A stretch of DNA of 64,000 nucleotides, from the NCBI RefSeq assembly GCF_900111195.1, contig NZ_FOGL01000012.1, positions 60,987 to 124,986 on the forward strand. The letters run 5' to 3'. This DNA is from Gracilibacillus ureilyticus. Its GTDB lineage: Bacteria > Bacillota > Bacilli > Bacillales > Amphibacillaceae. The notes beneath the pieces are model-generated. The model was given only the letters and a program-made list of their open reading frames with translations, did not search any database and had not been told where the DNA came from. Positions 9,269 through 22,129 of the stretch are shown here, one piece after another. Every line of letters starts with the position of its first letter. The stretch's first letter is position 1. Both the position numbers and the translations under genes were made by a program.

Positions 9269-10567
9269 TCAGCTGTATGCCGGTAGCCAATCTCCATGCG
9301 CTTCAATTAAATCATCACAAAGTGAAATAATATCATCCAGCGACAGTTCCGCCGAAGTATGAGGATCCAGCATTGCTGCCTGGTAGATTTTCTCTTTCTT
9401 TTTTGTTAGGGCAGCTTCTATTGTTACAAGCTGTGTATTAATATTTGTCCGATTGAGCGCGGCAAGCTGTACCGGCAGGTCACCAACATACGTAGGAGTA
9501 ATACCGCTGGCCTCTACGAGACACGGAACTTCCACTACCGCATTCTCTGGAAGGTTACTTATTAATCCTCCTTTATTTGACACATTCCCGCCAATTTTAA
9601 TCGGTTTATTTGTCTCCATCGCCTCGATAATATAGGAACCATATTCATGGGTTCGCTCATGGGTAAGATTCTGATCGTTTATTAAGTCATCGCGCATTTT
9701 TTTCCAGCCTTCAATCTGGTTCACACACCTGCGCGGATATTCATCTAACGGAATATTATATTTATCAATTAATTCCGGATATTGACTCTTAATAAAATAA
9801 GGATGGTATTCTGCATTATGTTCAGATGATTCCGTCACATAATAGCCAAACTTATCCATCAGTTCAAATCGGACCATATCGTTATGTTTCTCTTTTTGCT
9901 TTTCTTTCGCTCTTTTCTTAATTTCCGGATACAGATCTTCGCCATTCCGGGTAATTTCCAGTAACCATGCCATATGATTAATTCCGGCAATTTTCCACTG
10001 AACATTATCTTTTGGCATTTCTAATGACTCAAGTAAATGGTCAGCACATACTTGCACGCTGTGACATAATCCAACTGTCTTTATTCCTTCTTTCAGCATG
10101 ATGCTGGTTAAGACAGCCATTGGGTTTGTATAATTTAAAAACCAGGCATCAGGGCAAACCTCTTTTATGTCTCTTGCGAATTCCTGCATTACCGGAATTG
10201 TTCGTAAATTTCGAAATATCCCGCCAATACCTAATGTGTCAGCAATGGTTTGACGTAATCCATATTTTTTCGGTATTTCAAAATCGGTTATCGTACATGG
10301 ATCATATCCACCAACCTGAATGGCATTGATAACATATTTAGCGCCTCTTAATGCTTCTTTTCGATCATGATAAGCTGTTATTCTTACGTTTGCATTCATA
10401 CTATTTCTTAAATTATTTAACATCATTTCTGAATCTTTTAATCTTTCATGATCAATATCAAATAAAGCAAATTCAAATGATTGTAATGCTTCTGTCTTCA
10501 TACAATCCCCCAGGACATTTTTCGCAAAAACCGTGCTTCCTGCACCTAGAAATGTAATTTTCGACAA
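9269..10567 (-). CDS. melA: alpha-galactosidase, GH4 (MelA type)
   Basis: NAD+- and Mn2+-dependent GH4 enzyme (432 aa) that cleaves alpha-galactosides by an oxidation-elimination mechanism. It follows Bacillus MelA almost word for word: SKITFLGAGSTVFAKNVLGD (Rossmann NAD site), NAIQVGGYDP, NYTNPMA, and the metal-binding GLCHSVQ near residue 175. The frame is open to 10648 but the upstream part shows no homology. A GAGGAGG site lies eight bases before the TTG at 10567, where the family sequence starts, so that TTG is taken as the start. It heads the alpha-galactosidase operon with GH36 behind it. A sigma-A promoter and two 16-bp palindromes lie upstream (see separate entries). Confidence 0.95.
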   Translation of the reverse strand: MSKITFLGAGSTVFAKNVLGDCMKTEALQSFEFALFDIDHERLKDSEMMLNNLRNSMNANVRITAYHDRKEALRGAKYVINAIQVGGYDPCTITDFEIPKKYGLRQTIADTLGIGGIFRNLRTIPVMQEFARDIKEVCPDAWFLNYTNPMAVLTSIMLKEGIKTVGLCHSVQVCADHLLESLEMPKDNVQWKIAGINHMAWLLEITRNGEDLYPEIKKRAKEKQKEKHNDMVRFELMDKFGYYVTESSEHNAEYHPYFIKSQYPELIDKYNIPLDEYPRRCVNQIEGWKKMRDDLINDQNLTHERTHEYGSYIIEAMETNKPIKIGGNVSNKGGLISNLPENAVVEVPCLVEASGITPTYVGDLPVQLAALNRTNINTQLVTIEAALTKKKEKIYQAAMLDPHTSAELSLDDIISLCDDLIEAHGDWLPAYS

Positions 10568-13740: not shown

Positions 13741-14180
13741 ATTCCGCTTTTTTTGCAGATTTCTGCTTCTTATTTGCAACTTCTGCTCCCTTCTTGCAAC
13801 TTTTGCTCCCTTCTTGCAAATTCCGCTCTCTTCTTGCAACTTTTGCTCCTTTCTTGCAACTTTTGCTCTCTTCTTGCAAATTCCGCTCCCTTCTTGCAAC
13901 TTTTGCTCCCTTCTTGCAAATTCCGCTCTCTTCTTGCAACTTTTGCTCCTTTCTTGCAACTTTTGCTCTCTTCTTGCAAATTCCGCTCCTTTCTTGCAAC
14001 TTTTGCTCTCTTCTTGCAAATTCCGCTCCCTTCTTGCAACTTTTGCTCCCTTCTTGCAAATTCCGCTCTCTTCTTGCAACTTTTGCTCCTATCTTGCAAC
14101 TTTTGCTCTCTTCTTGCAACTTTTGCTCTCTTCTTGCAAATTCTGCTCTCTTCTTGCAACTCTGCTCTCTTCTTGCAACT
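13741..14180. repeat. 20-bp minisatellite, about 20-22 units in two linked variants
   Basis: From 13781 to 14160 there are 19 head-to-tail units of exactly 20 bp, then a 19-bp unit; two degenerate units precede (13741, 13761). There are two variants: GCAACTTTTGCTC and GCAAATTCCGCTC, each followed by a CTTCTT-type spacer. The base after GCAA predicts the variant almost without exception. The 80-bp block 13801-13880 recurs exactly at 13901-13980 and with two changes at 14041-14120, so the array grew by block duplication. Because 20 is not a multiple of three and stop codons are absent, long open frames exist on both strands; none has a ribosome binding site or known domain. The array sits between the terminators of the ABC-F gene and the trp operon. 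Confidence 0.93.
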
Positions 14181-20657: not shown

Positions 20658-20915
20658 AAATCCCTACATATACCACTGGGATATATATAGGGACGGTAAT
20701 TTCTAACCGCGGTGCCACCACTATTTGAAGTAATCACCTGTATTGATGATATACTTCCTCTCTTCATCTGTTAACGGGGATAAGCCGTTCCTCTGTACTT
20801 ACCTTCCAGAGCACTCTCCAAGGTCCATTCAGCCTATGATGTATACTGGTTTCCAGCAATCCCAGCTCTCTTCAATACATTACATAAACTTACTCATCCT
20901 TATCAGCGATTTTTC
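20658..20915 (-). ncRNA. T-box leader 2 (proximal), Trp specifier
   Basis: Minus-strand leader. Stem I has GAAGAGAGCTGGG and a specifier loop GAATGGACC, where TGG (20825-20827) is the tryptophan codon. The T-box bulge sequence GTGGCACCGCGG (20706-20719) is followed by a terminator with arms TCCCTA(C/T)ATATA...TATGTAGGGA and TTTTTT at 20661-20693. The antiterminator would pair with the uncharged tRNA-Trp 3' end. Confidence 0.93.
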
Positions 20916-20934: not shown

Positions 20935-21215
20935 AAAGGGTCTCCTGTCCTGAAAAGGACGAGGAAACCCGTGGTACCACCTTTATTAACTGTAAAAATT
21001 AACAGTTCACTGTTCACGTCAAGCTATGTCGCTTATAACGCTACCCCTTTGCAACGAGCGGGTCTCTCGCCAAAGCCTACTTAGCTTAAGCTGTTCGGTT
21101 TGGAGCTCGGAAGTCCATTCACTAATTTCCGCACACTGGTTTTCACCTGCCACCAGCTCTCTTCAGTGCTTCCCTTTAGTTACTCTTCTTCGTCTTAGCT
21201 AACGTTTATAAATGT
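20935..21215 (-). ncRNA. T-box leader 1 (distal), Trp specifier
   Basis: Second T-box upstream of the first in the same direction. AGAGAGCTGGTGGC in Stem I, specifier loop GAATGGACTTC with TGG at 21115-21117, T-box GGTGGTACCACGGG at about 20968-20982, and a terminator GGGTTTCCTCGTCC / GGACAGGAGACCC followed by TTTTTG (20936-20968). Two Trp T-boxes in series should give a steeper response to uncharged tRNA-Trp than one. Confidence 0.93.
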
Positions 21216-21278
21216 TGTTACTATCATAGTACGGAAACATACTGTTTGTCAATGCCTTTAATTAAATTTTCAGAATAT

Positions 21279-21827
21279 TTACAACTCCGTTATCTCTTCC
21301 TCGATTTTTTCGCCAAGGTGTCTCCCCGGCTGATCCGTCTTAACCATAATTCTGTCACCAGGCTGTAACTGAAGGACCTGCTTTTCGGCACCTTCCTCCC
21401 CCAATACATGGACACTGTCAGCTTTCTGTACAGTAGCCGATATTTCTTTCCCGTTTACATTCACCACAAGACGAAGGAAAGGTCTTTTCTCTATTTTGAT
21501 TCTTCCTATTGCAACTTTTCTTATCTTTCCATCTGCTGACATGACCATCACACGCTCACCAGGCTTCAGTTCAGCTAAATATGCCGTTTTCTCTTCATCC
21601 ACCATCGTATAATGATGAACAGCTCCGACATTTACACGAAATGGACGAGCCGGATAGGTTTCCGTCGTTCTATTTTCCGCAAGCATAATAATATATCCAT
21701 TACCAGTATTACCAACGAGTACCCCTTCTGATGGTTTTAAATTATCAATAAAATCTAAACATACACGTGTACCCTCTCCTAACGGTTCCACGCTAATTAC
21801 TTCCGCATATTGTAAGGTTGTCTCCAT
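21279..21827 (-). CDS. stand-alone C-terminal half of 3-dehydroquinate synthase II
   Basis: 182 aa. It matches, from memory, the C-terminal half of archaeal AroB' (DHQS-II, MJ1249 type): GEGTRVCLDF, LVGNTGNGYIIM, RPFRVNVGAVHHYT (near residue 62), YLAELKPGERVMVMSADG, IGRIKIEKRPFLRL, VQKADSVHVL, and PGRHLGEKIEEEI at the end. Full-length enzymes have about 350-370 aa, with an N-terminal half wholly absent here. The gene has a good ribosome binding site (GGAAGGGAG) and ATG, no frameshift, and no upstream sequence that encodes the missing half, so it seems a real short protein. It lies upstream of the trp T-boxes on the same strand. Whether it makes dehydroquinate is unproven; a regulatory or other enzymatic role is possible. 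Confidence 0.8.
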   Translation of the reverse strand: METTLQYAEVISVEPLGEGTRVCLDFIDNLKPSEGVLVGNTGNGYIIMLAENRTTETYPARPFRVNVGAVHHYTMVDEEKTAYLAELKPGERVMVMSADGKIRKVAIGRIKIEKRPFLRLVVNVNGKEISATVQKADSVHVLGEEGAEKQVLQLQPGDRIMVKTDQPGRHLGEKIEEEITEL

Positions 21828-21842
21828 CTTGATCTCCCTTCC

Positions 21843-21895
21843 AGCTTACCCCATTGCTAAGCATCCTGATAAGTTCGCTAACGACCAGACTAGCG
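21843..21895 (-). promoter_or_regulatory. two hairpins in the leader of the half-DHQS-II gene
   Basis: On the minus strand CGCTA-10 nt-TAGCG (21876-21895) and GCTTA-9 nt-TAAGC (21844-21862) stand in series 17-70 bases before the ATG. Neither is followed by a T-run. They could be a structured leader, a protein site, or part of a dispersed repeat; I recognise no known riboswitch. Confidence 0.4.
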
Positions 21896-22015
21896 TCAAT
21901 AACCACCGCTGATCATAAGTCTCACTTTATACAGTTTTTCCATAATTTTTTCATAGCTATTTACTGGACAATCATATACAATAAAACTTGATTTTTCAAA
22001 TGGGAGGGATACTCA

Positions 22016-22129
22016 TTGCGGAAGTTTTTAGTAATGTTATTTCTTCTATTAATAGTAAGCTTTAGTGTTATTGGCTATAGCAATTCAAGTCAATCCGCCG
22101 GTGAGGAAACCATCGAGATTGAGGAATAG
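22016..22129 (+). CDS. 37-aa hydrophobic peptide
   Basis: Short reading frame starting at TTG (22016) with a strong GGGAGGG site seven bases upstream. The translation has a Lys-Arg N-terminus, a hydrophobic core of about 16 residues (FLVMLFLLLIVSFSVIG), then a polar, acidic tail ending EETIEIEE. It could be a membrane-anchored or secreted micropeptide. A terminator follows 22 bases later. I do not recognise a family. Confidence 0.6.
   Translation: MRKFLVMLFLLLIVSFSVIGYSNSSQSAGEETIEIEE

Follow-up and report, generated by a model that had tools for sequence, protein, structure and literature searches.

A free-standing C-terminal half of DHQS-II is conserved in Bacillales genomes that carry aroB

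We analyzed a stretch of 64,000 nucleotides from Gracilibacillus ureilyticus (the window) and conclude that one of its genes encodes a real, conserved protein that is a variant of the DHQS-II family. The protein corresponds only to the C-terminal half of DHQS-II. It is half-length by design and coexists with AroB, and one branch of the tree parts it and its half-length relatives from the sampled full-length proteins. It is normally found without an AroA′-type aldolase, no N-terminal half was found for it, and no partner gene recurs beside it across families. Our best explanation, which we consider about equally likely to be right or wrong, is that a free-standing C-terminal half of DHQS-II was taken over for another job in salt-adapted families of Bacillales, where it would be a putative ligand-binding and probably catalytic protein.

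In archaea, DHQS-II serves the synthesis of aromatic amino acids. The gene in the window, on the reverse strand at exactly 21279..21827, is an open reading frame of 182 amino acids with an ATG start, preceded by a Shine-Dalgarno-like AAGGGAG that we read from the sequence (21834..21840, read from 21840 to 21834 on the reverse strand). The open frame around it has 188 codons in total, and therefore there is no in-frame N-terminal half upstream. The protein matches PF01959, the DHQS-II model, with an E-value of 1.7e-60 and 205.2 bits against a cut-off of 22.2; its residues 3-181 align to positions 165-343 of the 344 in the profile, so that the first half of the profile is uncovered. This match is far beyond chance, and the motifs RPFRVN-x-GAVH, GRIKIEKRP and GRHLG are all present. 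The initial annotation, which described a C-terminal half with these three motifs and a sound start, is thus borne out by the Pfam match and, as described next, by conserved half-length relatives. Among the NCBIfam models the best is NF002627, at 189.5 of 392 bits. The protein passes none of the NCBIfam cut-offs; these are calibrated on full-length proteins, and half of one could hardly attain them.

Among 61 relatives, including the window's own genome, 24 match PF01959, in every case from profile position 144 at the earliest, and all 24 have a half-length copy. The gene is carried by 16 of the 17 genomes of the window's genus, the sole miss being a genome that is 73% complete, and is absent from 13 of 20 genomes in other genera of the family. 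We then built a profile, A1, from 18 half-length proteins. In a survey of the order, this profile matches 38 of 397 genomes. Thirty-three of these have half-length genes (open frames of 180-263 amino acids, E at most 5e-60) and span six family codes (f1, f7, f10, f31, f32 and f85), while five have full-length genes (369-405 amino acids, E 4e-43 to 3e-47). A survey of the phylum with A1 gave 19 matches in 398 genomes, of which the only half-length one is the window's own genome; 17 others lie in open frames of 371-392 amino acids, and one genome (G857) matches A1 positions 4-100 in a frame of 309 amino acids. In a survey of the class with PF01959, 11 of 398 genomes match: four half-length, all in the window's genus, four full-length, one cut by the end of its contig, and two in which just the first half is matched, weakly, and no half-length copy occurs. 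Since relatives have the same length, we rejected a truncation peculiar to the window's genome; indeed, both length and start are the same across the six families.

In an unrooted tree, 52 half-length and 28 full-length proteins fall on opposite sides of one branch with 100/100 support. The tree was made from 91 rows, of which 80 remained after duplicates from the same genome were removed, and its full-length set is bacterial only. Four split or broken loci (L028, L029, L044 and L047) were left out of both A1 and the tree, and two genomes (G579 and G767) were left out of the tree.

The retained half is the conserved core of the DHQS-II family, since 27 full-length proteins have 42 invariant columns among 182 in the C-terminal half, versus 9 among 189 in the N-terminal half. 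Within the half-length proteins, 36 of 180 columns are invariant over 52 rows. Of the 61 columns with a conservation of at least 95% in full-length proteins, they retain 32, and 29 are changed. Residues common to both groups include R21, C23, D25, E51, R61, R64, N66, H71 and Y73, as well as R109, K111, E113, R115, Q134, R169, H170, E177 and E181, whereas fixed changes proper to the half-length proteins include N52, R53, Y58, S130 and S138. A kept polar core with new fixed residues would be less expected of a scaffold than of a protein whose ligand or reaction has changed, although the 29 changed columns would also fit a protein that lost catalysis and kept binding. A search of a copy of the PDB gave no relative by sequence for the window protein, for its profile or for a single full-length protein.

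It might seem that the neighborhood would reveal the function, because trpEGDCFBA follows directly after the gene, in the same orientation (gene names assigned from translations, without a family search). Between the two are a promoter-like site (TTGACA-18-TATGAT, 21223..21252, reverse strand) and two tandem T-box leaders of the trp operon on the reverse strand, at 20952..21205 (128.0 bits) and 20686..20915 (129.6 bits), each against a gathering threshold of 93. Tandem trp T-boxes are known in other Bacillaceae. Within the window's family the half-length gene is followed by trpE, as in 16 of one set of 19 loci, including a locus whose half-length gene is broken (L047); the exceptions are in Halobacillus, Salibacterium and Salsuginibacillus. 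The same order holds in all six further loci of the family (L113-L118; L118 and L035 come from one genome). The gene and trpE are separated by a DEAD-box helicase and a C92-like protein in four loci of Aquibacillus type (L034, L040, L043 and L113), and by the C92-like protein alone in L036. However, five other families contributed 24 loci, and none of these has trpE within 5.5 kb of the gene. Nor did any partner gene recur beside the half-length gene across families in the loci fetched: genes for a DEAD-box helicase, ABC-F, SodC and transporters were considered and rejected as conserved partners, as they either recur in no more than one family each or are several kb distant. The search for similar proteins and their neighbors that the initial annotation proposed therefore gives half-length relatives in six families, but trp linkage in the window's family only. 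The adjacency to trp that it pointed out is real there, yet as a clue to function it is not supported, given its absence elsewhere and the operon's own promoter-like site and T-boxes. We conclude that the trp neighborhood is the synteny of one family. Elsewhere in this region, a tandem array at 13764-14180, between an ABC-F gene and trpA, has a unit of about 20 bases (it can also be read as 40 or 60) and is open in several frames.

These observations bear on the idea that the protein is a non-catalytic sensor or regulator, whose domain would bind an intermediate of the aromatic pathway and control other proteins, such as those of trp or chorismate use. In its favor are the gene order with trpE, which different genera of the window's family have in common, and the change of 29 of 61 columns that are fixed in full-length proteins. 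However, trpE is not within 5.5 kb in the 24 loci of the other five families, and the trp operon has regulatory elements of its own. No known DNA- or RNA-binding family was found above its cut-off in the 182-residue protein, and the only matches, to PUA_4, KOW and AbrB-like stretches, are below threshold. We consider this explanation unlikely.

Upstream of the half-length gene is a promoter-like site, TTGAAA-17-TATGAT (21971..21999, reverse strand). It is weak alone, since five such sites were found versus 4.5 expected in shuffled sequences; its -10 region, however, is mostly retained across an alignment of 13 rows from the genus. Divergent from the gene is a small membrane peptide gene of 37 amino acids with a TTG start (22016..22129, forward strand; LRKFLVMLFLLL...). 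Such a peptide, of roughly 37-48 amino acids with an MRK-x-L-like start, is encoded on the facing strand in 27 of 28 rows from the window's family (five of the 28 being assigned to it by genus name only) and in none of 24 from other families, as counted by a pattern search in about 500 bases upstream. It is thus a neighbor at the level of one family, and its link to the half-length gene is only putative. The -10 region in the gap is possibly common to both genes. In the window, the leader of the half-length gene (approximately 21828-21905, reverse strand) exceeds that of 12 aligned relatives from the genus by some 70-80 bases, and this longer leader could fold.

Another possible role is that of a subunit or helper of an unrecognized enzyme, in which some other protein, e.g., a diverged TIM-barrel-like protein, replaces the lost N-terminal half. 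We consider this improbable. It is consistent with the fact that most residues invariant in full-length proteins are kept, and with two matches to the first half of PF01959, both below threshold, in the window's own genome (E 0.006 and 0.018); weak first-half matches also occur in the two genomes of the class survey that have no half-length copy. The window's genome has no other PF01959 match over the cut-off. A profile of the N-terminal half (A3, eight rows) found nothing in this genome at E-values up to 10. In ten further genomes, A3 matched both full-length controls strongly (G096 and G775, the latter with a second, weak match at E 0.045), and gave one weak match among eight half-length carriers (G453, E 0.057), which might also be counted in favor of a helper. 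However, the lack of an A3 match in the window's genome and of a partner gene that recurs across families argues against this role. We also rejected a split enzyme, given that neither PF01959 over its cut-off nor A3 gives an N-terminal half. A missing half encoded elsewhere, which the initial annotation had named as grounds for abandoning its proposal, was thus not found in the window's genome. Internal duplication was rejected as well; the only match, apart from segments that share residues, spans 21 columns around two L-x-x-G turns (hhalign probability 75%).

The protein might instead be a half-enzyme that still serves dehydroquinate (DHQ) synthesis. Its homology to DHQS-II favors this, because the whole C-terminal half is homologous to DHQS-II, or AroB′ (PF01959, EC 1.4.1.24), as represented by MJ1249 of Methanocaldococcus jannaschii and OE1475F of Halobacterium salinarum. 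However, aroB is present over the TIGR01357 cut-off in all 33 half-length carriers of the order, including the window's genome, in keeping with the initial annotation's statement that Bacillaceae normally use AroB. This feature separates half-length from full-length carriers poorly, since four of the five full-length carriers also have aroB. The AroA′-type aldolase adjoins the gene in all five full-length carriers of the order, whereas it is missing from 30 of the 33 half-length carriers, and in the other three (G496, G579 and G603) it lies on a different contig from the gene. None was found in the window's genome, in a search in which all five positive controls were found. This contrast assigns the full-length genes, but not the half-length ones, to a two-enzyme pathway. 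Lacking also the N-terminal half, the half-length protein fails the tested features of the DHQS-II enzyme, and we regard a role in DHQ synthesis as very improbable.

Two observations on related genes were made along the way. In one Bacillales genome rated 100% complete (G499; locus L120, 8297-10266), an AroA′-type aldolase (NF005556 over its cut-off) adjoins a full-length DHQS-II gene and no match to aroB was found; perhaps the archaeal-type route replaces AroB there. In the window's own genome, a second, weak PF01761 match (24.3 bits; G000, contig C16, 51615-51860, L002) lies in a frame of 355 amino acids that the aroB model does not match at an E-value of 1e-10, and this frame is perhaps another protein of the PF01761 superfamily.

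We also compared the protein with the 3,4-AHBA synthases of secondary metabolism (BagC/FevH and GriH), which belong to the same family in their C-terminal half. Their model, NF041224, matches the window protein at 123.9 of 750 bits and is the lowest-scoring of the seven DHQS-II-type models. Moreover, no aldolase or cluster lies beside the half-length gene, whereas one or the other accompanies the full-length genes in L056 and L058, as in all five full-length carriers of the order. All 18 members of A1 match all seven models. Because the window protein scores best with NF002627, and four bacterial full-length proteins with NF002625, there is a hint that the half-length family does not derive from the bacterial type of secondary metabolism. 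A precedent comes from Methanococcus maripaludis. PMC4162585, citing Porat et al. 2006, states that the homologue MMP0006 is not needed for aromatic amino acids, and gives its identity to the M. jannaschii homologue as 69%. On that account a DHQS-II relative need not make DHQ, although MMP0006 is presumably full-length, unlike the window protein. For MJ0400 together with MJ1249, a table in that paper puts DHQ formation at 4.8 without cofactor, compared with 103.1 when NADP is present and 226.8 when NAD is. Among the open-licence papers listed by literature searches, none is on a DHQS-II protein with only the C-terminal half.

That the gene is a functionless, decaying remnant of a full-length gene is scarcely credible. 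This reading could draw on the patchy presence of the gene and on two damaged copies: a half-length gene in Paraliobacillus sp. PM-2 (L047, approximately 10056-10369) that is broken by an internal loss and a frame change, and a degenerate second piece in another genome (G512, contig C6, 13366-13593; A1 positions 105-180, with one stop), about 8 kb from an intact copy. However, dN/dS is 0.075-0.156 in all ten close pairs, with five alignments that take in codons ahead of the likely start and with the pair of the window and L030 near saturation (dS 2.2). The gene is thus under purifying selection, which largely contradicts a remnant, as do the 36 invariant columns and the shared length and start. 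The conserved half-protein proposed initially is therefore upheld, both by these ratios and by the 33 half-length carriers in the order. As for frame decay in relatives, which would have spoken against that proposal, it has occurred in one (L047). A second copy in the genome of L028 and L029 is split (L044), which may be an assembly fault, because trp genes on the same contig are also split. The broken and split copies, together with the lack of the gene in 13 of the 20 genomes from other genera of the family, argue against a vital role, and the gene is dispensable in some lineages. We also rejected a phage origin, as two scans of viral contigs gave no relative and matches to phage families are weak (best E 0.0043 over 33 residues), and a defense system, for which there was one weak match (E 0.011).

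We return, then, to the proposal that the C-terminal half of DHQS-II has been put to a different use. Conservation, a sound start, the presence of aroB, the lack of an N-terminal half and purifying selection leave room for the enzyme of another kind that was among the initial suggestions. In this proposal, the half-length protein would fold on its own and would bind a ligand by means of the residues it has in common with the full-length enzymes, in a site putatively reshaped by N52, R53, Y58, S130 and S138. The ligand may be a small anionic metabolite, e.g., a phosphorylated or carboxylated keto-sugar or cyclitol. The protein would probably change this ligand chemically, and would not make dehydroquinate.

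An association with salt is a lead only. Ectoine synthase is present over its cut-off in 27 of the 33 half-length carriers versus 91 of 364 other genomes (Fisher p 1e-10, with kinship ignored; the counts were made by hand and take both surveys as covering the same 397 genomes).

A bolder hypothesis is that catalysis or ligand binding in DHQS-II truly resides in the C-terminal half, as its core, and that salt-adapted Bacillales have a free-standing enzyme with a new reaction, marked by GNTG, ENR, YP, S130 and S138 and perhaps linked to high salt. We find this possible but lean against it. Given the Pfam match, half-length carriers may bear the annotation "3-dehydroquinate synthase II" even though they use AroB. 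As a natural half of 20 kDa that holds most of the invariant columns of DHQS-II, the protein lends itself readily to solving a first structure, which would show which half of DHQS-II binds the substrate.
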